A DNA stretch of 64,000 nucleotides from Corythucha ciliata (taxonomy: Eukaryota > Arthropoda > Insecta > Hemiptera > Tingidae). The stretch spans positions 30,046,940 through 30,110,939 of the forward strand of contig CM075940.1 of the NCBI GenBank assembly GCA_038030265.1, written 5' to 3'. Made by a program: the position numbers and the translations under genes. Positions 8,990 through 34,133 of the stretch are shown here, in pieces (within the stretch, counting starts at the first letter, position 1; each line of letters starts with the position of its first letter). Under the pieces are notes generated by a model. It was not told where the DNA came from. It searched no databases and was given only the letters and a program-made list of their open reading frames with translations.

Positions 8990-9149
8990 CAGTGCCGGCT
9001 TTAAGGGGGGGGGCGAGCCCCGTGCCGGCCTTAAGGGGGGGGGGCGAGCCCAGTGCCGGCGAGTAAGGGGCGCGTCCAGCAAAATGGGAAGGGGGGGGAG
9101 AATGACCTAAGAAACGCATTTGATTTACGAATATTTCAAAACTACACAT

Positions 9150-10380
9150 TAGACGAAAATTGGATTTTTTTCAATTTCAGCCGATCAATTAGCGTTTTTA
9201 TCCCATGTTAGCGATTTTTCTCAATTTTTGCCATGAATTTAAGTTTTCCTCGATTTTTGCAGTAAATTAGCGATTTTTACCTTTTCAGCAGTGAATTAGC
9301 ACTTTGAGCATCAAGAGTATAGCGTTTTACGTTAATTTCAGCCGCAATAATTAGTGATTATTCTCAATATTGCCCGCAAATTAGCGGTGTATGAACTATT
9401 TTTGCCCCGTATTGACCATTTTTCAAGAAATTTTACCTATGGACCGCTTTCTCTCAATTTTAGGCCCGAAGTTGCCTCCAGAAACCACGGATTTCTGTTT
9501 TCCAAAATTTTAGCCCCGAGTCAGCGTTATTACTAAATTTTAGTCGAGAATTAGCGTTTTTCTCAATTTTAGCCGAGAATTAACCGGTTTTTTTCATTTT
9601 ACGATTCGCGAATTAACGTTTTTTCACGATTCTATCCGCGAATTAATTAGCGAATCTTTTCAGTTGTATCCGCGAAATAGGACTGTTCCAAGTTTAGCCG
9701 CTAATAGCGCATCATTAGTGAATTAGCAATTGTTGTCAATTTTTGCCGTGGATTAGCGTTTGTCCAGATTTATGCAGCTAATTAGCCATTCTTCTTTTGA
9801 GTCGTGAATTAGCATTTTTCGAAAAATTAGCTTCGAATTAGAGGCTTTTCACTTTTTTATCCGAATGGGCGATTTTTTTTTCAATTTCAGTAGCGAATTT
9901 GCATTTTTTCTCAATTTTAGCCCAGAATTAGCGTGTTTTTTCTAATGTACAGCCGTAGCGGGTTTTTTGCTTTTTCTAAGCCTTGTTTTTGCCTTTTAGG
10001 TCTTGTAGAAAAGCAAAAACCGGGCCACGTCTCAATATTACCAAAAATAACAGCACATTAGCGGTTTTTTTTGCGTTTGTTGTGCGTTGTCTATACACCG
10101 CGAATCGGCGATTTTTTTCTCAATTTCCGTCTCGATGTTTCATATCGGCATACCGGGAATGAACGCTATTCAACAGTTTTACCCACAAATATTAGCGCTT
10201 TTTCCAAACTTTTTGCTGCGTACTTGGCCGCAGGAACAGCATATTAGTGCGCCTTCTCGTCTTCATCCGGTTAAGGACCTAAATAACTGGGGAGCAGCGC
10301 ATTTTCTCTATTTTAGCCGCGAAGTTACCCCCGGAAGGCCGCATTTTCTCTCAATTTGAGCCTACAGAATAGAGCTTTCG
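9150..10380 (+). repeat. Degenerate minisatellite, family 1, sense orientation
   Basis: About forty units of roughly 30 bp. The unit is close to GCGAATTAGCGCTTTTTCTC followed by AATTTTAGCC, with each copy differing at several positions and in length. It is too diverged for recent expansion. It lies inside element E1. Confidence 0.85.
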
Positions 10381-10599
10381 TGGGTTAAATAGAATATTCA
10401 GCTACACTCCTTCCTGATCACCTGCAAAGTTCCAGTGACGGCTACAATTAAGAAAAATACTTAGCTACTTGCTATTTCGCGGCCAAAGTTTCCTTAAAGC
10501 TTCCGCGGATAAAGTACAGAAAAAGTGCTAATTAGAGGATAGAAGTATAGAAACGACAATTTTTGACTTTTGAAGGCAAGTTCGTGTCTCAAACTGAGA

Positions 10600-11480
10600 A
10601 AAAGCACTAAATCAGCGCTAAAAGCGAAAAAAATGCTAAATTTGAAGCTAAAATTGAAAAAAAATGCTAATTCATGGATTAAATTGAGAAAAATGGCTCA
10701 TTAGCGGTTAAAATTAGGGAAAAAAACGAATTCACTACAATGATTAAGAAAAATCGCTTATTCGCGGCTAAAATGGTGAAAAATGCATGCAAAAATCAAA
10801 TCGTAGCCGTAGGAGCCTACGTCGTCAGTCTTTCCTCGTCGAGGTGCATAATCGACAACAAGCAGCCGAAACCGGTCCGTCGATGAAACACCTCGACGAG
10901 GGAAGACTGACACGACTCTCACGGCTACGATTTTTTGCATGCACTACTTACTAACCCTCGTAGCATAAGCTTCTGCTAACAATTGCTAACGCGAAAACTT
11001 CAAATTCGCGGCTTCTGAACGTGACTTAGTGCCAGAAAAAGAAAAATTTCGCGAATCCATGGCAAAATTCAGAAAAAGCACTAGGTAATTGGGGAAAAAC
11101 TCTAGTTCGTGGCTGAAATATAGACGAATCTATGATTTTAGCGGCTAACATGAGAAAAAACGCTAATGTGTTGTTGTTAAAATCAAGATAAATGGCTAAT
11201 TGGGAGTTAAATTGAGAAAAAGTCGCTAATTTAAAGAAAATTGAGAAAATGGCGAGCCGCTTATCTGGAGGTAACTTCGTGAACAATTAGCAAAAAGCGC
11301 TAATTTTCGGCATAAATTGAGAAAATCGCTAACTCGCGCTAAAATGGAGACAAATCGCTTATTCACAGCTAAAATGGGGGAAAATATCTAATTCATCGAT
11401 GAAATTGAGAAGAACGCTGAAGTTTTGAAAAAACGCTAATTCGTGGTTAACGTGGAGGAAACGCCAAATCGTGGCTTAAT
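10600..11480 (-). repeat. Degenerate minisatellite, family 1, antisense orientation
   Basis: The same unit as the preceding array but reverse complemented (GGCTAAAATTGAGAAAAA, CGCTAATTCGC). It is interrupted by the fold-back element at 10784-10943. Confidence 0.82.
10784..10943. mobile_element. Fold-back element with arms of about 60 bp
   Basis: The ends are TGCATGCA and its complement. The left arm contains ATCGTAGCCGTAGGAG and CCTCGTCGAGGTG; the right arm contains the reverse complements with a few mismatches and small gaps. The loop holds GCCGAAACCGGTCCGTC, which resembles the phrase at the Penelope 3' end (8861-8874), so this may be a rearranged Penelope terminus. A partial relative lies at about 33150-33205. 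Confidence 0.75.
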
Positions 11481-11551
11481 CTGAACGGTGACTTCATGGG
11501 GGCACTGGTGAAAGATTCGCCCGGGGGCGAATATGTCTAAGGCCGGCACTG

Positions 11552-11559
11552 TCCAAGCC
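11552..11559. repeat. 8-bp target-site duplication of element E1 (right)
   Basis: TCCAAGCC, one mismatch from the left copy. Confidence 0.75.
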
Positions 11560-12310
11560 CTCCCTCGAAAATTGTCAATTTCGTTCTAGGAACTGTCAAA
11601 TTCGTTCTTCAAACTATCAATTTCACCCTCAGGAACTGAAAGTTTCGACTCGGAAATTGTCAATTTCGTTCTACGTCATAACAAAAGATCCCAAACCGAG
11701 GGAGACATCAGACAATTCGGGCTCAGACCAAGCCCGTTCACCGGAAACCGTCGAGTAGGTACTACTGTCAATTTCGACCTTGAAACTGTCAATTCCGTCC
11801 CAGAAATGTCAATTTCGTCGTTTGAAACTTCAATTTCGTCTTGGAAAGCATCAGTGGACATTTGTCCCAAAAACTGACTATTTCGTCTCATGAACTGTCA
11901 ATTTCGAATTAAAACTGTCCATTTCACCAGAAATGTCAATTTCTTCATTCGCAACTGTAATTTTTGTCGTTCAAAACTGTCAATTTCGTTCGAGAAACTG
12001 TCAATTTTGTCCTATAAATGTCAATTTCCTCATTCAAAACTATTGATCCCATCCTAGAAACTTTCAATTTTGTCCAATAGACCGTCCATTTCGTCACTCA
12101 AAATCGTAAATTTTTTCGCCGTTCAAAACTATCAATGTCGTCCTGGGAACTGTCAATTTTATCCTGTTAACTATCAATTTCGTCTCATATATTGGAAATT
12201 TCCTCCTGGAAACTACCGATTTCGCCCTGAAAACGATCAATGCCCTCCTACATTACTGTCAATTTTTTCTTGAAAAGTTCCCAAGTGGCCTGAAAACTGA
12301 TAATTCTAGT
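11560..12310. repeat. Degenerate minisatellite, family 3 (unit about 20 bp)
   Basis: Repeats of AAACTGTCAATTTCGTCCT and variants at about 20-bp spacing. The phrase CTGTAAATTTC also occurs left of E1 at about 8972, so E1 seems to have landed at the edge of this array. The same family recurs reverse-complemented at 53390-53740. Confidence 0.85.
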
Positions 12311-14808: not shown

Positions 14809-15479
14809 TAGGGTTGCCGGGTCTCCGGGCCTGGGACCCGATCTCAGGTCTCCGGCCGGGCCGAGAATATCTCCGGGTCAAAAAATATTTCGCTTTAGTT
14901 CAGAAAGTAACAACAAAACCGTTGGATTTATTTCGGCTATCTCTTCAAAAGGTTCAAACAACAAAAAAGTATCGACCACACAATGTTCCAACCCCAAGAA
15001 AGTTCTGTCCAAATATGGGCCTGTTCTCATCCCTTACCGCATGCGAAGAAAATATAAAATTTCCCCGAGACCCTGTTGAGGCAGCTCGTACAAAATTTAA
15101 TTATAACTAAACGGTCTGCTTTTCCAATTAAAACGTCAACAAATCCTACTCTCTGAACATATTTACCGGAAAATTAGCCCGAACTTTCGTTTAAGAAATT
15201 AAAGGATTTTTCTTCCCCCAATAAAGATGATATTTGGCCTAAAAAATTGCGAATTTTGCTTCCCAATAACTCACATGGGACGAAAACCGTTAAATAATCA
15301 CTGAAATTGCTTATTTGACCATGAAATCGCCCCAACTGGTTGATCCAAGATCCAAAGGCCTATATGTCGTAGTGTAACCACCGGTGAAACTACACATGAG
15401 GGCCTGGGACTGCAATCTCAATGAGACCTCTCAGTCTCAATACAATCGAGGAATATAAATTTACGTAGCGTTAAATGGA

Positions 15480-16650
15480 TTTTGCTGAATTTTAGCCACC
15501 AGAAATCGTGAATTGGTGTTCTCTCAATTTTATGTATACGAATGAGACATTTTTGTCTCTAATTTAGCTACAAATTAGCGAATTTCTTAATTTCAGTAGT
15601 GAATTAGCAATTCTTTTGACTTTTAGCCATGAATTAGCGCTTTATTTTTAGAGCTTTTTATCATTGTTAGCAGCGATTCAGAGCTTTTTCTCAGTTTTAG
15701 CAGCGAAATGTCAATGTTTTTAGGCACGAATTAACGATTTTTCTCAATTTCAGCAGTGAATTAGCCATTTTTCACATTTATAGCCACGAATTAGCGCTTC
15801 TTCTCAATTTTCAAGTTGCCTTCGGAAATTTTGAATTTGCGTTATCTCAATTTTAGCTGTGAATAAGCGGTTTATATCTCAATTTTAGCCACGAAAATGC
15901 GCTTTTCTCAACTTCAACACCAAATCAACTGTGTCTTCCAGCTAGAACTACGAATTAGCGCTATATCGCTTTCAAACTAGCAGAATATTAGCGACTTCTT
16001 CACATTTATCGATGATTTGGATCTTTTTCTCCATTTTAGCGGTGAATTAGCGCTATTCCCCAATTTTAGCAGCAAATTTCGCTTTTTCTTCGGTATTGTC
16101 AGCGAATTGGTGATGTGGTCTCATAATAGCAACAAATTAGTACTTTATCTCCATTTTAGCCCCGAATTAACGTTGTTGTTCCCCCCCCCCAATTTTAGCC
16201 GTGAAAGCGCCTCCAGAAATCGCGGTTTGGTGTTTTCTTAATTTTACCTTTGCATTATCGCTTTTTCTCAATTATAGCGCCGAATTAGCGTTTTTCCATT
16301 TGGGAGTAAGTTAGCGTTTTTTCTATATTTTAGAAGCAAATTAGCGATGTTTCTCAATTTGAGCACTCAATATTTGCGCTCACTTTTATAGCCACGAATT
16401 AACGCTTTATTCCCTCAACTTCAGCAGTTAATCAGCGATGTCGTTACGTTTAGCCATGAATTAGCGCTTTTTCTCAATTTCAGCCATGAAGTTGTCCCCA
16501 GAAATCGCGAATTGGTGATTTCTCAACTTTAGCTTTAAATGAGCGCCTTTCCTCAATCTCCCAGTTTGAGCAAAGTTTTTCTCAATTTTGCAGCGAATTA
16601 GTACTTATATTCATTTTAACAGCGAATCAACGATGTATTCACATATATGT
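15480..16650 (+). repeat. Degenerate minisatellite, family 1, inside E2
   Basis: Same roughly 30-bp unit as at 9150-10380 (GAATTAGCG then TTTTTCTCAATTTTAGCC). Units are strongly diverged. Confidence 0.85.
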
Positions 16651-16969
16651 AGAGACGAATTAGCTCCGAACACCAAAAGCTCGAAACACAAGACTCAGAT
16701 TTAACCGCAGGCGCTGATTCAGAGTTCAGCTCAAGCGACTGCGCATAAAGAAGCCCCGTCCCCACCTCGTGTGACAAACCAACCAAGGAAAACTCATGCC
16801 AGGATTTCATGTTTTCCCAGGAATTTAAACGTTCCGAGGGGGACAGGAGCGCACCTAAAGGGATAAAAAAAGGGGCACACGCCACCAGCGACAACCACAC
16901 AGTTGCAGCTTTTTCTCTCTTTCACACTCTCTCTCTCTCTTAGATAGCAGCAGATATGGGTCTCAACTC

Positions 16970-17585
16970 GGAATTTGTAGTTGAAAGTGCCAAATCCGCG
17001 AAAAAAAAGTTTCTGAAAGGGCCAAATCCACGAAATTAAGGGTTTGAATGAGCTAAATCCGCAGTTAAGAGATTATTTAAATGAGAAAAACCCTCGAAAT
17101 TGCTTTAAACATCGCAAATTCCGTGAAATTGCTTGCTTACTTGGGTGAGTCAACCCCGTAAATTGGTTTTTAAAGAGCCAAAATTGCAAAATTTCATTTT
17201 TGAAAATGACAGATATACACCCCCCCCCCCGCCTTCGAGTTTTCTCTAAACCCGAAATTATTTCTTTTTGGCGAGCGAATTCCACGAAGTTCGGGGCCAA
17301 CCCCTCCGAAATTTGGTTTTTGAAAGTTGGACCCACGAAATTTCTCTTCAATATGAGCGAATGTCCGGAAGTTTTGATTTTGAAGGCGTGAAACCCGTGA
17401 AGTTGACTTTTTTTAAGGGGAGGTTGACCACTCGAAATTGGTTTCTTACGTGCTGATACGCTGAATCGGCTTTTTGAATGAGCAAAACCCGAGAAATTTG
17501 GTTGCGCAAGTGCCAATAATCCGTGAAATTCGAGTTTAATGGGGGAAGAAAGCCGTGAATTGTAGCCATGTCTTGGGTCAAAATG
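16970..17585. repeat. Degenerate minisatellite, family 2 (unit about 30 bp), inside E2
   Basis: The unit is near AAATTTGGTTTTTGAAAGAG followed by CCAAATCCGCG. A run of ten C bases lies at 17221. The same family fills 27040-28250 and 63220-63830. Confidence 0.82.
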
Positions 17586-18006
17586 TTTTTTTGACCCGAG
17601 TGTTACATTTCAGAGCTTAACAGCACGCGCTGTAAACTTTATTTGTACAGAAATTTCGATTCTTTGAGTTAATAAATTAAACTTTGAAGACATAATTCTG
17701 CCTTGAAGGCGAACAGGCCAGTTTTGGATCACCAAATCGCGGGTCAAAGTTTTCTGAGTTTTTGACTAACTGGAATGGCCAATAGGTGGGGGCGAGCCCC
17801 CTCTGGATCCACTGTAGACTCTAACCACAAGAAGCACTAAACAAAAAGACTCATCACTCGCCAGAATGTTGGCGCAGATGAGCATAAAATGAATGAGCGA
17901 AGTATTTGGACCTTTGGATTGACAAAAACATATGTGATTGGGTGAAAGATTACTTGCAGATTGGCCCTAAAAACATGCTCGAGAAATTTCATAGCGTTTG
18001 CAATTC

Positions 18007-18126
18007 ACATAAAATTCCGCTCTGAAGCCGAGCAATCGAGCATGTCCACCCGTCTTCTCTTAATTATATCATATGGTAACAGAGAAGACGGGTGGAAATG
18101 CTCGGCTCCAGAGAGGAATTGTATGT
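18007..18126. mobile_element. Fold-back MITE
   Basis: The left arm starts ACATAAAATTCC and contains GAAGCCGAGC and CCACCCGTCTTCTCT; the right arm is its complement with few mismatches. The loop is about 20 bp of A/T. Arms are about 46 bp on the right and about 54 bp on the left, with an 8-bp extra segment in the left arm. Confidence 0.8.
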
Positions 18127-18328
18127 AAATGTAAAACGCCATCAGTTTGGCCCCACTGATTTAGGACCTCTAACCGCTTTCAGATTATCCCTTTGGTCCA
18201 ATTAATCCAGATCGGCTCTTGTGTTCAAATAGTGCAGATGTGCCTTTTGGGCGCTCAGGTGTCGATATGAAACCCCCCCCCCCCAACCGAATCTCCGGGC
18301 GAAGATCCTCGGCTATCTGGCAACCCTA

Positions 18329-19665: not shown

Positions 19666-21466
19666 TTAAGGCAAAGGAAATTCGTAGGAATGATTTTTAG
19701 AGTTGATACTCAGTAGAATAATAAAATTACTAGGCTTTCTCGGATGCACCAAGCATTTTAAACGGCAATGCAGAATAGACCCTTCAAAAGTAAAAATATT
19801 AAGATGGTAAAATCGAGTACGTAATGGTAGCAGACAACCAACCTTTTTCACACGGCTCCTTTTCACTCAAGTGAAAAACAGTCTGTTCCCAACGAGACGG
19901 GTGAGCGTGAGGTGAAGTCGACACCAGGGGCGGATGAGTACGACGCTCGTCAACGAAAGCTTCGAAGTATCCAACCAGAGCAGTAACATCGGAACATCGT
20001 TGGCCGTGAAGAACGAAATCAGTTTCGAAACACAAGTCACTTTTAGTAAACGTTCTCAAGTCCATTGAGTAAATAACAGCGGAGTCGGTGATTATATCGG
20101 ACACGTTAACCGCTTGGCGAACCGGTTTTATCAGTTCCGGTTTAATCATACAACCGAGGTTGTAATTAGCAATGCGAAGTTCAGTGGGAAGATTTCCTGC
20201 GAAATTCGAAGAGAATTCAGCATAAAATATTCTGCCAACGATTATTTAGTTGTACACCTACCGTCGTTGATTCCAAACATGGAAATAGAGAATTTACTAG
20301 GAACGATACGGCCATTAGGAGCCAGAAGTTTATCACGAGCGAACAATGCCGAATCAAGTTTGTTTTCAAAAAATAAAAAGTGACCCATCCAATCGCACAA
20401 GACGAAGTCGAATTGGCGGGTCGAGCTTTCATCGTCTTCGACAAGGTTAAGCCGTTCGGACAGATTATTTTCAGACGTGACTCGGCGGAAAAGTTGAACT
20501 TCGTCGATGTCACGAGCGAGAACGCCTACCGATTGAGCTTCCGCGTCAAGGGCGAGCAAAGCTAGACTGATAGAACCCCAGCCGGCGGCAAGAACAGTTT
20601 TGCCGGACAGAATCACAGAGCATGCTAGAGCGGAGCCAAATGACCGAACGTGATCCTAAAGACAAAATTTAAATCTTAATAAATATTAAAATAAAATAAT
20701 ACCAATAACATGACTCACTCGAGCACACAAATATTCCCTTTGCCAGCTGCAAGAAACAGTTTTATTTTGACCGTCAACACACTGACTGGGTGGTCCAGAA
20801 TCAAAGTAACGCTCTTGAGCATCATTTATTTCACGTCCCATCTCTTTCACTTTGTCCGACAGTTCTTGAAGGCGCTTTTGGAGTTCTAAGAAGTGGTGTA
20901 CGAACATCACAACTTTACCACTTTCAGAGTTGACATACTTTGGCATGGGATCATCGCACTTTGATTTAAGGCCCACGATATCTACGGTGGAAAACACTGA
21001 TAGCTCACACGAGTCATTTGAGTTAATGACGTGCACTGCTCACCATTGATGAGCCAAAGATCATTCTTAAGGTAGACTCTTGTACAGTTCGCCTTTTTCC
21101 ATACTGGTCTATTGCACTGGTTTAAAGCCGAAGCGTTTGGTTTCTTCGTTCTGATGTAGTTGATAAAACGCGTGTACTCCGTTCGAGTCATACTGAACTT
21201 TTCCTTAGAAGAGAAAAAGATCGAGTGACAAAATGGCACCTTTTCAATACAATCTTGTAAAAACGTACCACCATTTCAAAAACGTCGAAATTATGATCAG
21301 TCTTACAGTGGTTTAGCGCGTCAACCACGTTTTCCATTATTTTATGACAAAAAAGACACTTGTTTCCTTCACGATTCCACAAACGCGAGCGACGATCAAT
21401 CAAACTGTCTGAGTCCGAGGACGAGTAGTCGGATGATGATGACGATGATGAATCTGATTCGTCCAT
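19666..21466 (-). CDS. PRMT3: PRMT3-like protein arginine methyltransferase, altered catalytic motifs
   Basis: Six exons: 21269-21466, 21044-21203, 20719-20981, 20262-20655, 19843-20196 and 19666-19781. The introns are 61-65 bp with GT-AG ends, phases agree throughout, and the protein has 494 residues (PRMT3 is usually about 530). An acidic Ser-rich start is followed by a C2H2 finger (C37, C40, H53, H58), the PRMT3 hallmark that binds ribosomal protein S2. Then comes a coiled-coil linker (ELQKRLQELSDKVKEM), a SAM-binding fold, and a beta-barrel with ALVGYFEAFVDE and SRWEQTVF (THW position). Divergences: the SAM loop reads AAGWGS (228-235) instead of the usual GxGxG type; the first acid of the double-E loop is D295 (CDWMG), while the second, E304, is kept; the YFxxY motif reads YFDSG. 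The reading frame is clean, so it is probably a functional divergent paralog, perhaps with weak or no activity. Confidence 0.9.
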
Positions 21467-22100: not shown

Positions 22101-22109
22101 GAAGAAATT

Positions 22110-22475: not shown

Positions 22476-22588
22476 CCAGGGGCGGTTTTATGGAGGGGCG
22501 ATCGCCACCCCCGTCAGGTCAGCCACCCTCAGTGATACGGTGGGAAACCGGGGGGAGGGGTATAAGTAAAGGAAGGGAAAGTGAAAAG

Positions 22589-22592
22589 ATAC
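22589..22592. repeat. 4-bp target-site duplication of gypsy element (left)
   Basis: ATAC, repeated at 26912-26915. Confidence 0.7.
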
Positions 22593-22626
22593 TGTAGCGA
22601 CACCATAATTTACGCTAGCCCGTACA
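22593..22626 (+). repeat. 5' LTR of gypsy, internally deleted
   Basis: Starts TGTAGCGACACCATAATT and ends CTAGCCCGTACA; compared with the 124-bp 3' LTR it lacks about 90 bp of the middle. Confidence 0.75.
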
Positions 22627-22642
22627 AGCTGGTGACCCCAAC

Positions 22643-25560
22643 GTGATTCTTCGCAAACGTCTCGAACATCATCGTTCCAATTCACGTGATCGTCATCAAA
22701 ACCAACCTCGCCGACAAAACTCCCCGAGCCCGACGACTTTTACCCCAGAGTTTGGCTATTATCACTCGAGATTCGGTAACCAAGCCCAAAATTGTCGCCC
22801 ACCGTGCTTCTTTCCCAAGAAAACGACTTCTCGCTCCCAGGTAGCAGCTAGTGATCGCCGTAATTCCACAAACCGTCTTTTTATCACCGACAAGGTGACT
22901 CGTTTTTTAATAGACTCGGGCGCGGAAGTTAGCGTTTTACCACTCACTCGGCGCGAAAAACAGAATTCGCCTCAGAAGTTCACACTTTTCACTGCCAAAG
23001 GTGCACCCCACCTCGATCTCGACCTCCGGCGTCCGTTTCGCTGGCCCTTCGTCATCGCCGAAGTCACACATCCCATTATCGGCGCCGACTTCTTGAAATA
23101 TTTCAACCTAATCGTCGATCTCAGCAGCAATCGGCTAATCGATAGTAACACCCGTCTTTTTACTCTCGCCATCAATGCTCCAATATCAGCTTCTTGGCCC
23201 GTCGCACTTCAATCAATCGCAAACTCAGATAATAAATTCGCAAAATTCTTCAGCAGTATACCGATAAAACTCGTCTTTCACACCACACAATCCCCCCACA
23301 ACACCCAACATGTGATCGATACGCATGGAGCCCCATTTCGCTCACGCTTTCGCCGTCTTCCTCCCGAAAAACTCAATGCAGCCAAAGTAGAGTTTCAAAT
23401 CTTACTTGATCTCGGCATATGTAGAACTTCAAAGTCAAGCTGGTCTAGCCCCCTTCACATGGTTCCCAAAAAAGATGGGAGCTGGCGCCCTTGCGGCGAC
23501 TTCAGACGTTTAAACGCCGTTACGAAACCCGACCGCTACCCCTTACCCCATATCCACGATTTTGCAGCTAACTTAAGAGGTGCCAAAATTTTCTCGAAGC
23601 TCGACCTTCTACGTGCGTACAATCAAATCCCTATTGCGCCCCCGGACATCGAAAAGACCGTCATCATCACTCCATTTGGCCTTTTCAAATTTTCCATGAT
23701 GATATTCGGCCTTAGGAACGCCGGCCCAACTTTCCAAAGATTCACGGATGAAGTCCTTCGAGACCTACCCTTTGCTTTCAGCTACCTCGACAACGTTCTA
23801 CTAGCCTCTCGATCCCACGAAGAACATATAGAACACCTATCGCTTGTCTTTCAACGCTTTCGGAGCTACGGTGTTTGTCTAAACACGAATAAATGTGTTT
23901 TCGGCGTCGAAGAAATTGATTTTCTCAGCTTCCGTATAACACCGTCCGGTATCTCACCTCTCACCTCTCCCTCATCGCATCCACGATCTAACACAGGCCG
24001 AACGACCATCCACCTTTCGAGCTCTTCGCCGGTTCCTCGGAACTCTTAATTTCTATCGACGCTTTATGCCTCACGCAGCTTCATCTCAAGTTGCTCTTCG
24101 AGACGCTCTCACAGCTCGAAAAACCGATAATTCTCTTATCGTTTGGACCGATGAACTCATCACAGCCTACAACGAATGCATCACAGGCCTTGCTAACGCT
24201 ACAATTCTCGTCCACCCGAAGCCAGACTCTCCCCTCATTCTTCGAGTCGATGCTTCAGACATTTGACAGTACCGCTCAGCCGCTGGCCTTCTTTTCTCGA
24301 AAACTAACCGACGCGGAAAAACGATATAGTGCTTATGACAAAGAGATCCTCGCTATTTATGGTTCCATAAAACACTTCCGCCATTTCGTCGAAGGACAAC
24401 ATCTTACCATCTACACAGATCACAGGCCCCTCACTTTCGCTTTCAACCAAAACCCTGACAAAGCCTCGCCCCGCCAGTATCGTCATCTGGACTTTATAGC
24501 GCAGTTTACGACTGACATTCGCCATATCAGAGGAAAAGACAACGTCGTAGCCGATTGTCTTTCCAGACTCGAATCGGTTTCTCTCTTTGATTTCGCCGAA
24601 GTCGCTAAACTTCAAAAAGACGACTTCGAAGTAAAAAAACTCCTTTCATCTCACGATTCGTCCCTCAATCTTCATCTCACAACATTTCCTGGCCGCGACT
24701 ACTCACTTTACTGTGACGACAAACGACGCGTTTTCATCCCCACTCCTCTTCGTCGTCAAGCTTTTTCTCTCTTTCATAACTCATCTCATCCGTCTTCCAG
24801 AACTTCCGATACATTTTTACGATGATAGACCTATTTTCATCCTGGCTGGAAGCAACACCATCCCTGACTGTCGCTGAAACTTTCCTCACAGAGTGGATCG
24901 CTCGTTACGGTACACCCTCTTGACTCATCACTGACAGAGGCCGACAGTTTGACAATCTTTTCCGTAGCATTAACGAACTCCTACGCATTCGACATTTCCT
25001 CACCACTGCCTACCACCCTCAATCCAACGGGAAAGTCGAACGATGGCACAGATCCCTCAAAGCCGCTCTCAAGTGCCACGAATCTCCCGATTGGTACTCC
25101 AGACTGCCAACAGTTCTCCTCGGTTTACGCACGGTTACCAATAGCGGCGATTACACGGCAGCCGAACTGCACCTTGGAACTCCTTTACGTACGCCGGATG
25201 CATCTTCGATCCAACTCATCCTTTGCCCACCAACCCAAATCCATTCCTTCACCGTCTAAGAGCCTTCTTCGATGATGCACAACCTATCAACATCACACGA
25301 AATAATTCGAGGAAAACGTTCGTGCATTCTGATTTACCTACTTCTCGTCACGTTTAAGGCCGGGTCGACTCCGTCAAGAAACCTCTTCAACAACCATACG
25401 AAGGACCCTACCTCGTGATTACCAAATACGACAAATATTTCACTCTCGACAAAAACGGAAAACACGTCGTTATTTCGGTCGATCATCTGAAGCCTGCATT
25501 CCTTCTCCAGGAGCACAATTCTCTCGCTCAACTCACCGCTGACAGTTCGCGTCTTACAAC
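22643..25560 (+). pseudogene. Gypsy gag tail-protease-RT-RNase H-integrase, broken
   Basis: Order: the end of gag with a damaged zinc knuckle (first Cys replaced in [14 protein letters not shown]), protease [15 protein letters not shown] with [11 protein letters not shown] and [12 protein letters not shown], RNase H (YSAYDKEILAIY, YTDHRPLTF), integrase core (TDRGRQF, HPQSNGKVERW). The second catalytic Asp of RT is replaced: SYLDNVLL instead of the usual YLDD. Frames change near 23940-24260, a deletion near 24800 removes the integrase zinc-binding part, and a TGA precedes the integrase TDRG motif. This copy cannot make an active polyprotein. Confidence 0.88.
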
Positions 25561-25579
25561 TCATGTTCCGCCTCTGGAA

Positions 25580-26740
25580 TCAGCTGAGCAATAATCGAAT
25601 TGCGGGAATACCAGAGATCGAATAAGCAATTTTCTCACAGCAATCGGCAGAGACTCCTTTATCGAGGAAAGCTGGGCAAGGATTCGGAAGACACTTCGAC
25701 ACACGGATGAGACGTGCGAATCCCAGACAAGACCCTGATCCAGAGTCACACCGAGCGTAGTCACGCTGGATGCCCACGGAATCGCACAGCCGCCCACCAC
25801 CACACTGGGAATGTCACCCTCAGACAATGCCGATAGAAAATATCTAGTCCCAAACAATATAGCCTGAGTCTTTTGTCGATTAATTATAAGGTCGTTCCTT
25901 CGTGCCCAACCAGGAATGACAGTCACATCACTGTTCAGTTTTTCCACTGCATCACAAATAAGATGTGGCTCAAACGAAAAGTACAGCTTAACATCGTCCG
26001 CATACATGTGGTACTTGGAGTGCGTAATACAAGCGGGTAGGTCACACTCGTAAACTGAAAACAAAAGTGGCCCCAAAACCGACCCCTGCGGAACGCCACT
26101 CTCAGGAAGCAAGAAAGAGGACAATGAGCGGTCCGAAGAGGACACGACAGCCTGTCTGCACCAGTCAGATACGACAAAAACCAAACACACGCACCACGAG
26201 ACAATCCAATGCCAGTAAGCTTAACCAACAGTTTACCATGATTAACTCTATCAAAAGCTCGACTAAAATCGAGTTGAACCATCGCAGTCACCTTATACTC
26301 ATCAACTGCGCCAACTACGTCAGACGTCATCTTAAGCAAAGCCGTCTGAGTTCCATGATGTGCACGAAATCCACTTTGATATCGATCAGTGAGTCCCGCC
26401 GATTCCAAAAATTTCGACAACTGACCATAAACGCACTTTTCAAGAGCCTTCGCCAAACAACAAAGCAATGAAATAGGGCGAAAATCCTCCATCTGCACCG
26501 CATTTCTTTTCTTCGGCAGGGGCAGCACCAAGGCAGACTTCCACGACACTGGATAAACAGACCCCTGGAGTGAGGTGTTGAATATTTCTTCTAATGGCTC
26601 GAGAATGCATGGAAGGGATAGCTTAATGAAAGACAACTGCAAGCCGTCACTACCACACTGGAATCTGAACTAACCGACACAACCGCATCCACGATCTCCT
26701 CCCGAGAAACCATATTATTATACCACTACATTCACCAATC
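25580..26740 (-). mobile_element. Jockey/CR1-like non-LTR reverse transcriptase fragment, antisense within gypsy
   Basis: On the minus strand: a region with REEIVDAV, a frameshift, then FIKLSLPCILEPL, DFRPISLLC, motif A QLDFSRAFDRVNH, a frameshift near 26170, then GVPQGSVLGPLLF, MYADDVKLYF and the thumb down to FPQFDYC. Both ends are missing, including the 3' end that a simple retrotransposed copy would keep. It occupies the space between integrase and the purine tract of the gypsy element. I see no target duplication. Confidence 0.85.
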
Positions 26741-26787
26741 TCGACATCGCTCACGCACCGTCCAAGCCTTCACTGAAAGGAGGGTAG

Positions 26788-26911
26788 TGTAGCGACGCCA
26801 TAATTAATTCCATTAATTATTGAATTTGATAAAACAAAAATAAAATCATCAGTTGTGTTTGTTCCACGAACAGAAATTTTCTTATTGTACCGTCTTACGC
26901 TATCCCGTACA
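26788..26911 (+). repeat. 3' LTR of gypsy
   Basis: 124 bp, TGTAGCGACGCC to CCCGTACA. It contains AATAAAATC (about 26840), a likely poly(A) signal. It is followed by ATAC, the 4-bp target duplication. Confidence 0.82.
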
Positions 26912-27039
26912 ATACAAATGTTAGAGAAAGAAAATCGTATCTAGATCCTACAGAAAGCAAATCGTATCCAGATCCTATAGAACTAGGAAGTAAGAAAATT
27001 ACTTATTTTAATATTACTTAGTAGTACACCATTTGCGGA

Positions 27040-28250
27040 GAAATTGGATTGTGAAGGGACCGAATCCGAGACATTTGGTTATGGGAGAGCGAAAATCAGC
27101 AGAAATTGTGGTATGAAAGAGCCAAAATCTCGACATTTGGTTTTTAATGAACCACATTAGTTTTTTAATTAGCCAAAATTATACAAAAGGCTGCATGAAG
27201 CCATGAAACTTGTTTTAAACATAAATCCCGAAAGTTGGATTTGAAGGAGTCAAATCCAAAAAAAAGTTGGGTTTGAAAGAGTGAAAGTATGCGAAATTGT
27301 GGTTTTGTAAAAGCCAAATCCACGAAATTTGGCTCTTGAAAAGCATAGTTTTCGGAATAAAAGAGTAAAATCGGCGGAACTTGGGATTTCAAGGGGACGA
27401 GTGCGGAGGTTTTTCTCAAGAAATCCGTGTAACTGGGGCTTTTAATAGCCAAAATAACAAAATTTGGCTTTTTAAGTTACCCAAATAAAAAAATTGTATT
27501 TGAAAAAAATAAATTTGTTTTCTAATTAGTAAAAGCTGCTAAAACAAGTTTAGAAAGAGCTAAAGCCACACAAATTTTGTTGATTTTGTTTTTCTTTGTT
27601 TTTGAAAGAGGAAAAACCGCGAAATTGGTGTTTAAAATGACCAATTCTGTTTTGAAGAAGCCGAATCCAAGACATTTGGTTTTGGACGAGCCGAAGTCAC
27701 GCCATTTGGTTTTCAAATGGGCCAGACTATTTTTTCGTATTAAAAAAATATATAGAAAGAGTGTTTGCCCTAAAATTTGGTTTATCATGAATTGTAAATC
27801 GCCAAAATTGAGTTTTGAAAGAGCCAAATCCAAAAAAAAAAAAAAAAATTGGTTTTCAAAGAGTGAAAATCCTCGAAATTAGGGTTTAAGGGACCAAGTT
27901 CACGAAATTGGGGTTTGAAAGAGCTAAAGTTCGTGAAATTGGTTTTTGAAAGAGCAAAACAAACGAAATTCGGGTATAGGAAAGAGTAAACTTCACGATA
28001 TCGGGGTCTGAACAAGAAGAATTCGCAAAATTCAGTTTTAAGAAGAGCAAATGACCGCGAAATTGAGGTTTGGAAGATCAAAACTAACGAAATTTTGTTT
28101 TAGAGAGATAAAAAATCCCTAAAATTTGGATTTAAACGATCGAAATCCGTAAAATTTGGTTTTGAGAGAGCAAAAATCAGATTAATAATAGACTCAAATG
28201 CGATATTTCGTTTTTTAAAGGGCCAAACGCGCAGAACCTGTTTTGGACCT
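27040..28250. repeat. Degenerate minisatellite, family 2, inside E3
   Basis: About forty units of AAATTTGGTTTTTGAAAGAG followed by CCAAATCCACG, about 30 bp each, strongly diverged. The apparent open frames here are by-products of the repeat. Confidence 0.85.
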
Positions 28251-28523
28251 GGTTTTTTGGTAGAATATTCTAGATTCCAAGGCAGTATTCCAAGATTTTT
28301 GGTTTTAATCAAATTGCCAGCACGACATTCGCTCAGATTCTTAAGCAGATATCAGACACTGCAATATAAAATCCGGGTTTTGGGAAACAAAGACAGTGCG
28401 CTTTCGGGCTACTTTTTTTTATATAAGAAAATTAAGAAATTAGGCCAATGAGATAAGTTGGGGGGGGGGGGTGAGAACACATTCTATCGCCACCCCCGTC
28501 ACGGAGGCCTAAAGCCGCCCCTG

Positions 28524-28531
28524 CCCCTCGC
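28524..28531. repeat. 8-bp target-site duplication of element E3 (right)
   Basis: CCCCTCGC, identical to 22468-22475. Confidence 0.9.
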
Positions 28532-28576
28532 CCATTATTCCCTCACCGTTATACGCGTAGTGTTTGGAATATTTTA

Positions 28577-28789
28577 TTTTTTATGGTCTCAAATGAAACC
28601 TTATAGGCCTGAGGCAAGGCCAGCAGAGCCTGAATTTCAATTTTGACTTTCCTTTAATCTTAAATCAACTTGATATAATTACTAGAACTTTTATGAATTT
28701 AATTTAAAATTCGAGGAAAGTCAAAATTGAAATTCAGGCTCTGCTGGCCTTGTCTCACGCCTATAAGGTAACATATGAGACCATAAAAA
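28577..28789. mobile_element. Fold-back MITE with arms of about 75 bp
   Basis: The left arm begins TTTTTATGGTCTCA and holds GGCAAGGCCAGCAGAGCC; the right arm (from about 28713) is the reverse complement with a handful of mismatches. The loop is about 50 bp of A/T. A transcript would fold into a long hairpin. Element E4 begins eight bases after it. Confidence 0.88.
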
Positions 28790-28796
28790 TTGAAAT
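28789..28796. repeat. 8-bp target-site duplication of element E4 (left)
   Basis: ATTGAAAT, identical to 34134-34141. Confidence 0.78.
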
Positions 28797-29359
28797 CAGG
28801 TGCGTAGTTACGGGGGGGGGGGATTTGGGGGATAGATCCCGCCCCCCAGAGCTACAAGTATACGAACGAAGGGGCACTATAGTACCAACGAAGAGCCCCA
28901 TATAAAATCTCCAAAAATGAACGTTTCGCGTAGAGGTTAGGTTTAGCAGATTTTCTGGACTTGAAGCAGCTCGAGAAGGTCAGAGTACGTCCAGCTGTTT
29001 CCTTCGAATCAGACCCCACGCAGTAGCGTACCGTGGTAAGGGTGAGGGGGGGGGGGTTCGCCCCGGACCCTCTATCAGACGGGGCCCCCGAAAAGCTTAA
29101 ATAAAGAAAATTACTATTTATAGGTTATCCATGGATGTAGGTATGTGAATGGGTCGTACGGTTGGAAAGCGATTTGGCTCCTTTCTACGAATTTCAGTCT
29201 ATCCGACCTGGAGAATATAACGTTGCAAGTAATATCAGCAAAGAGTGTGCGAGCTGAATATTCGATTGAGCCCCCGAAAGCGCTAGTTTTATAGTAGCTA
29301 TAACCAGTTATATCAGCTGCAATCTGCTAAAAAGCGATGATTCGTGGTCCCGCGATGCA

Positions 29360-30395
29360 ACTTCCAGACTAAAATTAAGAAAAAATCGCTGATTCGCGGT
29401 GCATGGAGGCCATTCTATGAATAAATTATGGAAATCAACGCAAAAGTGTAGTATTTGGCCCAACCCCGCGGTTAAAGTTTAGAAAACACGCTATAATATT
29501 GACACAAAAAATAGGTACGTTTTCACGTTAAATTGGACAAAAATGGCAAATTCACAACTGAAATGGCGTAAAATCGCCCATTCGCGCATGAAAAAGGGAA
29601 TAGGATGCTGAATGGCCGCAAAAATGAGCACAAAACGCTATTTCACAGCTGAAATTGGGAAACATCGCTAATTTGCAACTTGCAGATATGAAGTTGTGGA
29701 AAAACGTTACTTCGCGGATACAAATAAAGAAAATCACTAATTCCCGACAAAAATTGAAAAAATCACAAATTTTGCAGCTAAAATTAAGAAAAACGTTAAT
29801 TTTCAGTTGAAATTGGGGAAAAGTGCTAATTCTCAGTTGAACATGGAAAAAATTGCTAATTTGCAGCTTAAATTGAGTCAAACGCCAATTCTTTGAAAAA
29901 ATGGACAAAACTCGGTAGGTAATGCACAGGTTGAAAACGCTACAACGCTGCTAAAATCTAGAAAAAGCGAAAATTCGCTGCTAAAATTGAGAAACATCAC
30001 TAATTCTCGAATAAATGATGATTTTTTGACAGAAATGGATGGATAGAAGTAAATTTTTTGGTTTGAAAAAAAAACATTTATAATTTAAATTCGAACCTAG
30101 AAATTCGGAAAAATAGCAAATTCATGTATGGCTATAGTGTAATGTTAAAAAATACGCTAATTATCACAGCTAGAACTGAAATGAAGCAATAATCTATACC
30201 TATAAAAGTTATAAAAAAATGGCTAATGCGATGGTAAAATGTGAAAACCCGCTAATTTGCGGGTATTATTTAGAAAATAAAATAAATAGCCTGGTCAAAA
30301 TTTAGAGAAAGGTTAATTTTAAGCCTAAAAATTGAGAAAATTCCTAATTCGCAGCTAAAAATGGAAAAAATCGCCAATTTACAGCTAAAATTGGA
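29360..30395 (-). repeat. Degenerate minisatellite, family 1, antisense, inside E4
   Basis: Units of GGCTAAAATTGAGAAAAA with CGCTAATTCGC. The part 29371-29870 is nearly identical to 36997-37482 seven kilobases away, far more alike than units within the array. Confidence 0.85.
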
Positions 30396-30484
30396 CGGAT
30401 ATAATGAATAAATCTGTCGCCGGTATTTTAATTAATAAATTAATTAGACTGATATTATCCGGACGACGATGGAAGGGCATATAG

Positions 30485-31430
30485 CTAGTGTTGAATCGAT
30501 ACCAGTAAATAGAGTAAAATATCGATACTTTTCAATCGATAGTTTTGGTATCGATAATTTTTTTCGATACCAAGTACTATTTCGATACTTTGATTCGATA
30601 CTGGGAAATGAGTACTTCAGGAACCGATATTTTTCATTCGATACTGAGTACGATTCGATACTTATTAATCAATACCGAGTATTTTTTATTTTTTTACATT
30701 TTTTAAATTAATTTAAACACGTGAACTCCCGGCATCGGAAACGTACCGTTTGAAATGAGTACTTTAATTGGTATCGAATGGGTATTGATTAAAACTAGTA
30801 CGATACTGAATCAATACCCATTCGATACCAAGTAAAAGTACTCATTTGAAACGATACCGAATCAATACCCATTCGATACCGAGTATTTACTTGTTTGAAT
30901 CAATACCCATTCGATACCGAGTAAAAGTACTCATTTGAATCAATACCCATTCGATACCGAGTAAAAGTACTCATTTGAAACGATACCCATTCGATACCGA
31001 GTTTTTACTCGCTTGAATCAATACCCATTCGAGTACTTCTACTCGGTATCGAATGGGTATTGATTCAAATGAGTACTTTTACTCGGTATCGAATGGGTAT
31101 TGATTCGGTATCGTTTCAAATGAGTACTTTTACTCGGTATCGAATGGGTATTGATTCAAACAAGTAAATACTCGGTATCGAATGGGTACTGATTCGGTAT
31201 CGTTTGAAATGAGTACTTTTACTCGGTATCGAATGGGTATTGATTCAAACAAGTAAATACTCGGTATCGAATGGGTATCGTTTCAAATGAGTACTTTTAC
31301 TCGGTATCGAATGGGTATTGATTCAAACAAGTAAATACTCGGTATCGAATGGGTGTTGATTCAAATGAGTAGATATTCGGTATCGGGTATATTCATTCGG
31401 TATCGTAAAAGTAACGGTTAAGTAAGAGAG
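30485..31430. repeat. GGTATCGAATGGGTATTGAT satellite forming a giant palindrome
   Basis: Units of about 35-45 bp built from ACTCGGTATCGAATGGGTAT, TGATTCAAA and GAGTACTTTT. Left of about 31027 the units run in one orientation; right of it they run in the other, with arms of roughly 280 and 370 bp. Units are far more alike than those of the 30-bp families, so this array is young. Related, less regular units lie at 31715-31950. Confidence 0.9.
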
Positions 31431-31432
31431 TT

Positions 31433-31583
31433 ATAAGCTCGGTGCACACTATGCATTTTTCGTAGCATATTGCTATTTATTTGGAGGTTGAAATGAAATA
31501 TATGGTCCCCGGTAGTGACCGGATAATTTTTAAAACCGGTAGGCAATCCTATTTCAAAAGTTGCATAGCGTGCATCGAGCTTA
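31433..31583. mobile_element. Small MITE inside the TATCGATA region
   Basis: The ends are TAAGCTCGGTGCACACTATGCA and, reverse complemented, TAAGCTCGATGCACGCTATGCA, a 22-bp inverted repeat with two mismatches; total about 150 bp. Confidence 0.75.
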
Positions 31584-31990
31584 AGTAGTCATTGTGTTTC
31601 AATTAAAATGAATCTCTTTTTGTATAAGGGAGTAGTGATTGACGACTCGATAAATCATTAGAGATGGTAGTGCTTTTGGCTTTCGTTGGTTGGTGATGGA
31701 GGGGTTTTATTACAAGCTTGTTGAATCGATACCACTACGGTATCGATACTTTTGAATCAATACCAAGTACTTTTGGTATCGGTACTTCTGTACCGATACC
31801 GAGTATATATCGATACTTTTTATACGATACTGTAAACAAGTTATATGAGTATCGATACTTTTCATTCGATACCAAATACCATTCGATACTTCTCATTCGA
31901 TACTTCAAATGAGTAAAGTATCGATACTTTGTTGGTATCGATTCAACACTACATATAGCCCAACACGATTCGAGTTTCGAGAAAAAAATG

Positions 31991-32063
31991 GCTCCCCGGC
32001 GGGATTTGAACCCGCAACCTCTGGATTACCAGTCCAGCACGCTGCCATTTGCGCCACGGAGAC
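31991..32063 (-). tRNA. tRNA-Thr-like gene (anticodon GGT) with Pol III terminator
   Basis: Read on the minus strand: acceptor GTCTCCG with CGGGGAG, A box GTGGCGCAAATGGCAGC, anticodon stem CTGGA/TCCAG with loop CTGGTAA (GGT), T arm GCGGG TTCAAAT CCCGC containing the B box GGTTCAAATCC, then a T run as terminator. Pair 1-72 is a G-G mismatch and 4-69 is T-G. Animals normally decode threonine with AGT, TGT and CGT, so GGT is unusual. It is either a tRNA pseudogene/SINE head or a divergent tRNA. Confidence 0.65.
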
Positions 32064-32256
32064 GCCTATGAGAGTCGTACTCCGAGGGATAAGCTAAGCC
32101 GAACCCCACCCAGGTCCATTGTTTCTAGAAACTCTAGGCGCTTCTCCTGATCGGTAAACCACGCCGAATTTTATCTTATCTAGATGTTGTTAGATGGATA
32201 TAATGAATAAATCAATCAGTCTAATTAATTCATTAATTAAAATACCGGCGACATGG

Positions 32257-32325
32257 TTGCGGGTTCAAATCCCGCCGGGGAGCCATTTTTTCTCGAAACT
32301 CGAATCGTGTTGGGCTATGCCCTTC
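32257..32325 (+). pseudogene. Truncated inverted copy of the tRNA-like 3' half
   Basis: GGTTGCGGGTTCAAATCCCG, the rest of the tRNA 3' half and about 35 bp of its 3' flank repeat the unit at 31955-32018 in opposite orientation. The shared flank shows that the tRNA and its trailer were copied together. Confidence 0.8.
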
Positions 32326-32339
32326 CATCGTCTAATTAA

Positions 32340-32960
32340 TTTATTAGCTAAAATTGCGCCAAACGCCATTTTGTGACTGAAATCGAGAAAATTCGCTAAT
32401 TCACAAGTTTGAAACGCTACGACGCGTCGCCGCTGCAATTTAAAAAAAAAGCGCTAATTCGCGGTTGAAATTGAGAAAAATTCTAATTTTCGCCAAAAAC
32501 TGAATATACGCCAATTTGCGGATTCTGAAGGCAACTTTTCAGGCTGAAATTGAAAAAAAGCGACAATTCATGGCAATAGGCGGAGAAACCGCTAGTTTGC
32601 GAGTAAACTGAGAAAAACCGCTCATGCATTGCGTATGGTGAACCAAAAAAAAATCCTAATTCGTGAAAACACTTAAGAAAACGTTAATGTACAGCTAAAA
32701 CTGAGAAAAGTGCTAATCCCCTGGAAAAAAAAATTCAAGAAGTCGCTAATATGCTGCTAAAATTGGATAAATAAGAAACATCGCTCACGGGATAAAAACG
32801 ATACTTTGCTGCTAAAGTTGAGAAAATGCGCAAATTCATGGCTATGGGAGGTGGTGGGGCAAGACCGCTAGTCTGCGGCTGAAATTGAGAAGAACGATAT
32901 ACTCGGCCAAAATTGAGAAAAGCGCTAATTTGCGGGTAGAGTCCAAAACTCGCCCTTAAC
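32340..32960 (-). repeat. Degenerate minisatellite, family 1, antisense
   Basis: The same GCTAAAATTGAGAAA/CGCTAATT units. The part from about 32765 is duplicated at 33787-34000, together with the subterminal segment. Confidence 0.8.
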
Positions 32961-32977
32961 TAAGAGATTGAGGCAAT

Positions 32978-33345
32978 GATGAGGCAAGCAAGATGTCCAG
33001 ATTCAAGAGTGTGCTGGCTGGGTGGAATGATGACTAAAATGTGAATTACCCCCCTCCCCTCACCCTTACGAGATTTCAATCTCACCCTCCCCCTACAGGA
33101 CAAATTCCTACCTACGCCACTAATTGTAAGTAAAGTTCGCTTAAACTACGAGGGTTAGTAGGTAATGCATGCATAAAGTTGCAACCGTAGGAGCCTACAT
33201 TGTCAGCAGTGGTGTAGGTAGGAATTTGTCCTAGAGGGGGGGGGGATCAGATTAAAATCTAGTTGCGGTGAGGGGAGGGGGTAATTTCACATTTTAGCCA
33301 TCATTCCACCCAGCCTCCACACTCTTAAATCTATCGGACATCTTT
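32978..33345. repeat. Inverted pair of subterminal segments, third copy at 33995-34133
   Basis: Segment 32978-33122 (GATGTCCAGATTCAAGAGTG ... CCTACCTACGCCACTA) is repeated in reverse at 33207-33345 and directly at about 33995-34133. Each ends in the CAGTGGCGTAGGTAGG-like phrase. The pair can form a long hairpin. Confidence 0.82.
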
Positions 33346-33786
33346 CTGGCCCCATCATAGCCTTGCCCGAGAACAAAATTACTATTAATCCCTGATTCAT
33401 CCAGACATTCCAGAATTTTCTTTTCGATAAATCGTTATGTAATGAGTAGAGTAGAGGCTAGTCTGCTAGTCTCATGAAGTTCTCCCGGATGCAGATCGAC
33501 GAATTCGATGATACGAGTGCAAACGCACACTTTTACCCAATTCAAGGGACAGTGGTGGCCACTCTATGATGTTGGTAAGGAAACCGCGTACGTTGGTCAA
33601 TTGAGCATATCTCCACGCGACGCATACTTTCGGCTCAAATTGAAATACTCAGAAAAAATGACTCTAGAAATCTCTCAGTTGGGCGATTTTTTAGAGGAAA
33701 CGGCTAAAATTTAGAAATGGATGAAACCGCGTATCGTGGGGTCACTGGCGGACCTACACCTATCGGGGCCCCAATCGCTCGTGGAT

Positions 33787-34133
33787 AATTATGAAACATC
33801 GCTTACGGGATAAAAACGATACTTTGCTGCTAAAGTTGAGAAAATGATCAAATTCATGGCTATGGGAGGGGGAAGGTCAAAACCGCTAATCTGCGGCTGA
33901 AATTGAGAAGAACGATACACTCGGCCAAAAGTGAGAAACGCGCTAATTTGCGGGTAGAGTCAAAAAAATCGCCCTTAACTGAGAGATTGAGGCCAGCAAG
34001 ATGTCCAGATTCAAGAGTGTGCTGGCTGGGTGGAATGATGACTAAAATGTGAAATTACCCCCTCCCCTCATCGTTACAAGATTTCAATCTGATCCCCCAC
34101 CCCCCCAAGGACAAATTCCTACCTACGCCTCTG
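33787..34133. repeat. Direct duplicate of 32765-33122
   Basis: GGGATAAAAACGATACTTTG, then family-1 units, then the subterminal segment, about 90% alike by eye. It forms the right end of E4. Confidence 0.8.

Follow-up and report, generated by a model that had tools for sequence, protein, structure and literature searches.

Non-autonomous hAT-type elements of several end families as probable carriers of an old 30-bp minisatellite in Corythucha ciliata

How does one degenerate minisatellite come to lie within several transposable elements of the same genome? The question is raised by a stretch of 64,000 nucleotides from the hemipteran insect Corythucha ciliata (assembly GCA_038030265.1, contig CM075940.1, positions 30,046,940 to 30,110,939, forward strand; hereafter the window), in which four segments, E1 to E4, combine short inverted ends of the hAT type with arrays of two 30-bp tandem repeats: F1, a degenerate minisatellite with the unit TTTTTCTCAATTTTAGCCGCGAATTAGCGM, and F2, with the unit TTTGGTTTTGAAAGAGCCAAATCCGCGAAA. 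A first-pass annotation, made from the letters alone, had taken these segments for a family of non-autonomous hAT-type elements, and had offered two explanations for their content: hAT transposition may have spread the arrays, or the elements may be prone to expand short repeats inside. The window and the assembly to which it belongs (400.9 Mb in 57 contigs) point to the former, with an important modification. E1 to E4 are probably non-autonomous hAT-type elements that belong to several separate end families, whose bodies are largely an old minisatellite module and which would have been moved in trans.

The hAT-type character of the segments was examined through a scan of the window to which their positions were not supplied, and which accepted CAG/TAG ends with at least 8 of 10 letters alike, 8-bp flanks differing at no more than one position, and lengths of 0.2-8 kb. 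Six pairs were returned, namely E1, E2, E3, E4, an element nested within E4 (N1), and a pair at 55229-57029. In 60 shuffled windows no pair appeared in the classes of E1, E2, E3 and N1, and 0.05 per shuffle in the class of E4; the class of the pair at 55229-57029 gives 1.03 pairs per shuffle, which places it at the level of chance. All of the inverted ends and flanks quoted in the first-pass annotation are present and were recovered in this manner, including its perfect duplications in E2, E3 and E4 and its imperfect one in E1 (Table 1). Taken with the relatives found in the assembly (see below), 8-bp duplications are intact (8/8) in E2, E3, E4, N1 and L014, and match at 7/8 in E1, L039+L050, L044 and L053; short inverted CAG/TAG ends are likewise present, the left-type end of L039+L050 starting with CATGGGCG. 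Complete elements with duplications measure 1.6-6.0 kb, and do not fall within the size (some hundred bp) of miniature inverted-repeat transposable elements (MITEs). As had been claimed, no hAT transposase was detected within E1 to E4 among the open frames listed and those scanned; a hAT transposase relic is located at 60546-61418 of the window, with a PF05699 domain in 61038-61418 (6.4e-22). The first-pass annotation had also placed a fifth probable member at 62321 (E5): the type of its end is right and F1 and F2 follow behind it, but the 7.7 kb after 62321 (6 kb of which lie beyond the window) contain no convincing partner end, with one weak candidate matching at 6/8 and 6/10.

Table 1. Elements, repeat arrays and associated structures of the window (positions are those of the window; F1(+) and F1(-), F1 on the plus and minus strand).
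Feature	Position	Strand	Remarks
E1, hAT-type non-autonomous element	8990..11551		ends CAGTGCCGGC 10/10; flanks CCCAAGCC/TCCAAGCC 7/8; foldback-like, F1(+) left, F1(-) right
F1 array of E1, left	9076..10425	+	degenerate
F1 array of E1, right, inverted	10351..11550	-	
E2, hAT-type element	14809..18328		ends TAGGGTTGCC 10/10; duplication GGTAGAAA 8/8
F1 array of E2	15451..16725	+	
F2 array of E2	16876..17625	+	
E3, hAT-type element	22477..28523		ends CAGGGGCGGYTTTA 13/14; duplication CCCCTCGC 8/8; paralogous empty site in palindrome
Gypsy-type retroelement (RVT_1, RNase H) nested in E3	22593..26920	+	approximate; limits set by eye from ends resembling long terminal repeats
F2 array of E3	27001..28350	+	
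Palindrome, inner part	28571..28796		arms took in E3 (left) and E4 (right)
E4, composite hAT-type element	28797..34133		ends CAGGTGCGTAG/CAGAGGCGTAG 8/10; duplication ATTGAAAT 8/8; paralogous empty site
F1 array of E4, left part	29251..30450	-	
N1, separate hAT-type element nested in E4	30486..31951		ends TAGTGTTGAA 10/10; duplication CATATAGC 8/8; own 40-bp array
F1 array of E4, right part	32251..33000	-	
Internal copy of E4-family right end (33122) and inverted copy (from 33207)	33122..33207		flanks ATTGTAAG, ATTGTCAG, by eye
F1 array adjoining E4 right end	33751..34050	-	
Partial copy of the F1 array of E4, hAT ends lacking	36855..37535	-	94-99% identical by piece, 98-99% for the longest; between copies of a tandem duplication
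F1 array with short inverted part, no hAT ends found	53851..55650	+	82% identical relative in L016
E5, hAT-like left end CAGTGGCGTACC	62321..64000	+	F1 behind it at 62476-63300, F2 at 63151-63975 (inverted in its last part)

An F1 or F2 array does lie inside every one of the four elements, as the first-pass annotation had stated: F1 in E1, E2 and E4, and F2 in E2 and E3. E1 to E4 make up 27% of the window yet hold 63% of its F1 bases and 72% of its F2 bases, an enclosure matched by 0.16% of circular shifts in the case of F1 and 3.75% in that of F2. A relation between the two units themselves was not upheld, the best of six comparisons being weak (reached by 6 of 500 shuffles). A third repeat, F3, with a unit of 21 bp, adjoins E1 (at 11.6 kb) and is present again at 53.3-54.0 kb, in both places outside E1 to E4. 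The pieces of E4's array that lack hAT ends are found between the copies of a tandem duplication at 34715-39484 (2.8 kb, approximately 95-96% identical overall). A search for hAT ends around the 53.9-kb F1 array yielded none above chance, as judged from a shuffled null, and nothing convincing was seen around the 34.7-39.5 kb duplication, the 11.6-kb F3 array and the transposase relic, for which no shuffled null was used.

The notion of a single hAT family is ruled out by the number of copies of the different ends, counted as exact matches genome-wide with a reversed-pattern control that gave 0 for every type. The right-end 18-mer of the E4 type has 942 exact copies, the E1-type end 335 and the E2-type end 312, and what had been described as one family must be replaced by at least three distinct end families, with hundreds of exact copies apiece. 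For the E4 type, eight ends on contig C1 were taken in list order (with the omission of one close pair), together with L031, a close pair further down. F1 is present inward of seven of the eight and also of L031, in comparison with 22.5% of 400 random stretches of 1.2 kb; being copies of one family, the nine ends reveal the cargo of that family and do not represent nine independent events. For seven of these ends, identity to the internal E4 end copy of the window, in register with it, amounts to 85-92% over approximately 740 bp that include the array; among themselves the seven are 86-95% identical. In addition, of the seven exact F1 matches listed for C1 up to position 45.2 Mb, two are situated inward of an E4-type end, at distances of 0.7 and 1.2 kb. 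In L039+L050, a partner end that resembles E4's left end is present at 2,641 bp, together with a 7/8 duplication.

Within the first 100 of the 335 places listed for the E1-type end, six inward pairs separated by at most 8 kb and no outward pairs were identified, all six being rich in F1 (14/20, 15/21, 15/20, 21/24, 25/31 and 49/68 windows). E1 itself and five of these six pairs display F1(+) followed by F1(-), that is, the long inverted, repeat-built ends of foldback elements, a feature that E2, E3 and E4 do not share. Between E1 and L057, identity amounts to 79-81% over stretches of 1,260, 606 and 424 bp, and L053-L055 are 94-95% identical E1-type elements at distant sites on C1, with 7/8 duplications. 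The E2 type is represented by L044, a complete 1.8-kb relative (7/8) in which F1 starts approximately 20 bp from one end and which shares with E2 the order of F1 followed by F2, and by L045, which carries E2-type ends with F3 inside and no duplication. The suggestion that hAT transposition has spread the arrays gains considerably from these observations, since F1 is found in 6/6 E1-type pairs and at 8/9 E4-type ends, and since seven E4-type copies carry one and the same degenerate array in register.

How old the arrays were when they moved can be read from their units. Arrays of the E4 type match in register at 85-95%, while units within an array are only approximately 64% alike, which indicates that the arrays decayed before moving and that hAT movement copies them. 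The target duplications point in the same direction: those of E1 to E4 contain 1 mismatch in 32 sites, and at the divergence seen between units a count of one or fewer has p=1.6e-5, a value that is biased because the scan itself permitted at most one mismatch in each. Duplications that are near intact beside diverged units suggest that the arrays had decayed before these insertions, with the caveat that the scan favours intact duplications. The spread of pre-aged arrays is strongly supported for the E4 type, is seen for the E1 type through more diverged copies, and is represented in the E2 type by few copies.

If, on the contrary, each element family had grown its own array by slippage from a shared seed unit, neighbouring units should retain some trace of it. 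Among 193 F1 units of the window, all with at least 20 aligned letters, neighbours are 0.648 identical as compared to 0.647 in shuffled order (the real order being equalled or exceeded in 126 of 300 shuffles), identity remains flat with distance up to 30 units apart, and identity within arrays is only 0.006 above that between arrays (equalled in 11 of 300 label shuffles); this lack of neighbour similarity, together with the flat identity, indicates that F1 arrays have undergone no recent local growth. No linkage between columns of the F1 unit was apparent, the measured value being attained in 12 of 40 shuffles. The same flatness with distance (0.632-0.651) is displayed by 474 F1 units in 28 arrays from a random sample of the genome (20 stretches of 10 kb, L010-L029, drawn from most of the seven largest contigs), with an identity of 0.643 within and 0.626 between arrays; the array means are overdispersed (chi2 103, 27 degrees of freedom), indicating that F1 decay has been similar, but not identical, among arrays. 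Furthermore, in the F1 part of the seven E4-type copies (21 pairs of approximately 620 bp each), 135 of 169 insertions or deletions measure 1-7 bp, larger ones being of 57-61 bp (6 times) and 78 bp (8 times). Ongoing expansion as the main process was rejected on both of these counts, and the proposed proneness of the elements to expand short repeats is not supported; growth inside the elements is not the main process. Local growth is nevertheless seen in particular places. Three perfect F1 units in tandem, with a near-perfect neighbour, are located at C6:1984255-1984344 (L030 3956-4045) within a 2.6-kb degenerate array, and represent a recent small expansion within an old one, while the array of N1 (30807-31385), with a 40-bp unit and two inverted halves, is 88-94% identical to its consensus and, unlike F1, is young. 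In addition, arrays of different elements proved non-collinear in a unit-order test, as separate growth would predict: nothing convincing emerged from 21 array pairs (the lowest value being 7 of 200 shuffles), in a test that picked up common descent in simulations with as much as 18% divergence in each lineage (3/3 at six levels) as well as the real E4b/E4c duplication. A gapped alignment did place 5 of the 21 pairs, including E1/E4 and E1/E5, above 100 shuffles; common descent of the arrays across elements is not claimed, since the null of that alignment broke long stretches and the unit-level tests (300 and 200 shuffles) gave nothing convincing. Taken as a whole, independent growth from a seed unit is an improbable source of the arrays, although an ancient, separate expansion in each family may have taken place.

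The distribution of F1 across the genome brings in a different objection, namely that F1 and F2 could be ordinary genome-wide minisatellites, spread by other means and enclosed by hAT ends merely through their abundance. Within the 200 kb of the random sample, F1 accounts for 22.1 kb when measured by windows (11.1%) and 27.8 kb by profile (13.9%), F2 for 3.2% and F3 for 0.9%; 12 of the 20 stretches contain F1 and 15 contain F1 or F2. The scan nevertheless returned there a single true hAT pair (L014 3718-5972, duplication 8/8, with F1 inside), a second pair, in L019, being composed of array letters. The first-pass annotation had accepted that arrays found mostly outside inverted ends would speak against it, and to this extent the sample does so in part; the window contributes the end-less F1 array at 53851-55650 and the nearly identical pieces of the E4 array that lie outside hAT ends. 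Such an enclosure by abundance is hard to reconcile with E1-type pairs that consist mostly of F1, far above its share of the genome, or with an array that recurs in register in the E4 type and, more diverged (66-81%), in the E1 type. Moreover, for 19 of the 28 random arrays the roughly 300 kb compared contain a relative with at least 74% identity over 150 bp, two of them in their own stretch, with the weaker ones, near 76%, possibly due to chance. Mere hitchhiking is consequently judged unlikely. It is also conceivable that another kind of element, such as Helitrons, carries most F1 and that the hAT families obtained their arrays from it, as the large part of the sample's F1 without visible hAT ends would allow; no other ends were identified, although no systematic search for them was made, and this origin is given little credence.

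Several observations weigh against the interpretation that hAT-type elements carried these arrays, and should be considered together. Approximately 1 of the 22 kb of F1 in the random sample (some 5%) lies between intact hAT ends, and carriage by hAT elements is therefore established for part of F1 only. The E3-type end has 4 exact copies genome-wide, its own included. Among E4-type ends, L032 lacks F1, the array of L035 is not collinear, L038 has no partner end within 4.7 kb, and L040/L041 is an inverted duplication (16/16 flank letters) rather than a simple element. Pairs of ends without a duplication were encountered in L031 (1/8), L042/L043 (at most 2/8) and L045 (1/8), such that none of the three close pairs of identical E4 ends (L031, L040/L041, L042/L043) is a simple element, and the flanks of the E1-type L056-L058 match at 2-3 of 8 letters. 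The near-identical 20-bp flanks of L053-L055 imply one insertion, probably duplicated with its surroundings, rather than three, and F1 was found within 2 kb in two of four further E2-type ends. Finally, no transposase has been matched to any of the end families, and no movement was observed.

That two of the elements did insert is indicated by the palindrome that they share, with E3 in its left and E4 in its right arm. Upon in silico excision of both elements, with one copy of each duplication retained, the palindrome pairs further, its local score rising from 146 to 180, with a 15-bp insertion or deletion and a few 1-2-bp gaps left; each arm therefore serves as the empty site of the other. 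Paralogous empty sites, which the first-pass annotation had proposed to look for, are accordingly available for E3 and E4. The 6 kb of E3 consist mostly of the gypsy-type element and of a fragment of a long interspersed nuclear element (LINE) reverse transcriptase on the minus strand, while E4 harbors, in addition to N1, internal copies of its own right end and is accordingly a composite, one that moved as a whole. Also inside E4, approximately 40 bp from N1, is a gene for tRNA-Thr (31990-32063, minus strand; Rfam, 58.7 bits), whose GGT anticodon is unusual among animal nuclear tRNAs.

These elements suggest a scheme in which hAT transposases encoded elsewhere would mobilize E1 to E4 in trans. 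The hAT dimerisation domain scored above cut-off at 150 of 150 scored places (out of 655 candidates), many of them in long open frames. The bodies of the elements are made up in large part of the old F1/F2 module (with F3 in one E2-type pair), whose growth has largely ceased, and new families could be born when hAT ends recapture array DNA, either through composite ends or through template switching during gap repair. The case for recapture is circumstantial, and is built on the composite nature of E4, the end-less copy of its array at 36.9-37.5 kb, and the presence of a shared unit under different ends.

Why the same unit should recur under several end families remains of interest, and its base composition provides a possible clue. 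In F1 arrays the A/T spectrum has its maximum at 10.0-10.3 bp, with a value of 1.2 as opposed to 0.3 in non-array DNA (approximately four-fold), and a 10-bp signal is present in the consensus units of F1 (0 of 5000 shuffles) and F2 (0.0094). Periodic An/Tn clusters (PATCs) are defined by an A/T cluster period of approximately 10 bp, and F1 and F2 do show A/T clusters in such a phase, as judged from this spectrum and from the consensus units. In addition, the letters TTAGC occur twice in the F1 unit, their A being conserved to 0.88 in one place and to 0.71 in the other (p=2.6e-5, in one of five comparisons), and spacings that are off register fall near multiples of 10 in 26 of 65 cases for one anchor (15.5 expected). 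Phased A/T clusters, or sites within the unit, might thus help the element, by protecting it from silencing or by binding transposase or host factors, and might for this reason be shared by hAT families; this periodicity, the uneven conservation of columns and the recurrence of the array under several end families would all be compatible with such a role. Nonetheless, F3 (0.15) and the N1 unit (0.23) have no significant 10-bp signal, the spacing signal is hardly present for the second anchor (37 of 131, with 31.2 expected), and AT-biased mutation, CpG decay or old variants could yield the unevenness; a function of this kind appears doubtful. In its boldest form, the proposal would make F1/F2 a portable module of helically phased A/T DNA, re-acquired by unrelated hAT families because it is useful as a shield against germline silencing or as a docking site for transposase or host factors, and this can be put forward only as a speculation with slim prospects. 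Joined to it is the equally speculative and improbable suggestion that selection on phase preserves the 30-bp period while the letters decay, in a module that would by now occupy over a tenth of the 400-Mb genome.

Some further features of the arrays and of the window deserve mention. The exact 29-nt consensus of F1 occurs 70 times genome-wide (control, 0), and adjacent perfect units occur only once, in L030. A longer F1 pattern gave 0 matches in viral contigs and a shorter one a single chance match in a tRNA; F1 gave 0 matches in prokaryotic contigs, and its artificial translation matched no protein. At 8986-9060 there are approximately 2.5 tandem copies, with a period of 31 bp, of E1's left end and its G-run. 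The random sample (200 kb) contains 63 runs of at least 8 G or C, and the window 19; those located within 300 bp outside an F1, F2 or F3 array amount to 26% in the window, versus 5% of random positions, and to 19% versus 11% in the sample, F3 arrays having entered the count for the sample alone. A host protein arginine methyltransferase exon (PRMT_C, 1.2e-17) is located at 19799-20245 on the minus strand, between E2 and E3, and 64- and 92-bp tandem repeats occur at 42545-43088 in a long open frame that adjoins a gag-like open reading frame.

The interest of the present case is that a single repeat, aged before its movement, is common to several hAT families whose ends differ, which makes the age of the array and the age of the insertion separable in one genome. 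Among the titles and abstracts listed in a literature search, none described hAT families with a shared degenerate minisatellite. If the module has been recaptured repeatedly, it would offer a natural experiment on the birth of non-autonomous families; if the 10-bp phase is what has preserved it, phased A/T DNA would have in this module a counterpart carried by transposons, one open to direct testing. Macrotransposons and composite Ac-Ds elements are known composite units, and E4, which moved as one unit holding internal copies of its own end, resembles them, with the difference that it shows internal end copies and not two full elements. As described in PMC7725773, PATCs make up 6-10% of the Caenorhabditis elegans genome, and F1 is similar in being non-coding DNA with phased A/T clusters and a comparable genome share; unlike PATCs, it forms tandem arrays inside transposons, and the likeness rests on phase and genome share. 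The inverted halves of E1-type elements, built of tandem repeats, recall foldback elements such as Tetris and Galileo, the end repeats of the latter holding extra transposase-binding sites according to PMC4079207; in contrast to Tetris as it is presented there, with units of approximately 220 bp, E1 has hAT-type ends with an 8-bp duplication, and E2 and E4 are asymmetrical. Tandem repeats that ride on class II elements are already known from PMC9659126, PMC4079207 and PMC6947457, the first of which lists non-autonomous elements, MITE-like ones included, such as Xmix/Xstir and miDNA4 in Xenopus, CvA/Pearl in bivalves, and (GTCY)n MITEs in Lepidoptera. E1 to E4 resemble these in being non-autonomous class II elements that carry and disperse tandem repeats, and the available text of PMC9659126 names no hAT element with a minisatellite. 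While the cases described in that text involve one repeat per element family, in C. ciliata a single degenerate 30-bp unit is common to several hAT end families, and takes up a large part of the element and more than a tenth of the sampled genome.

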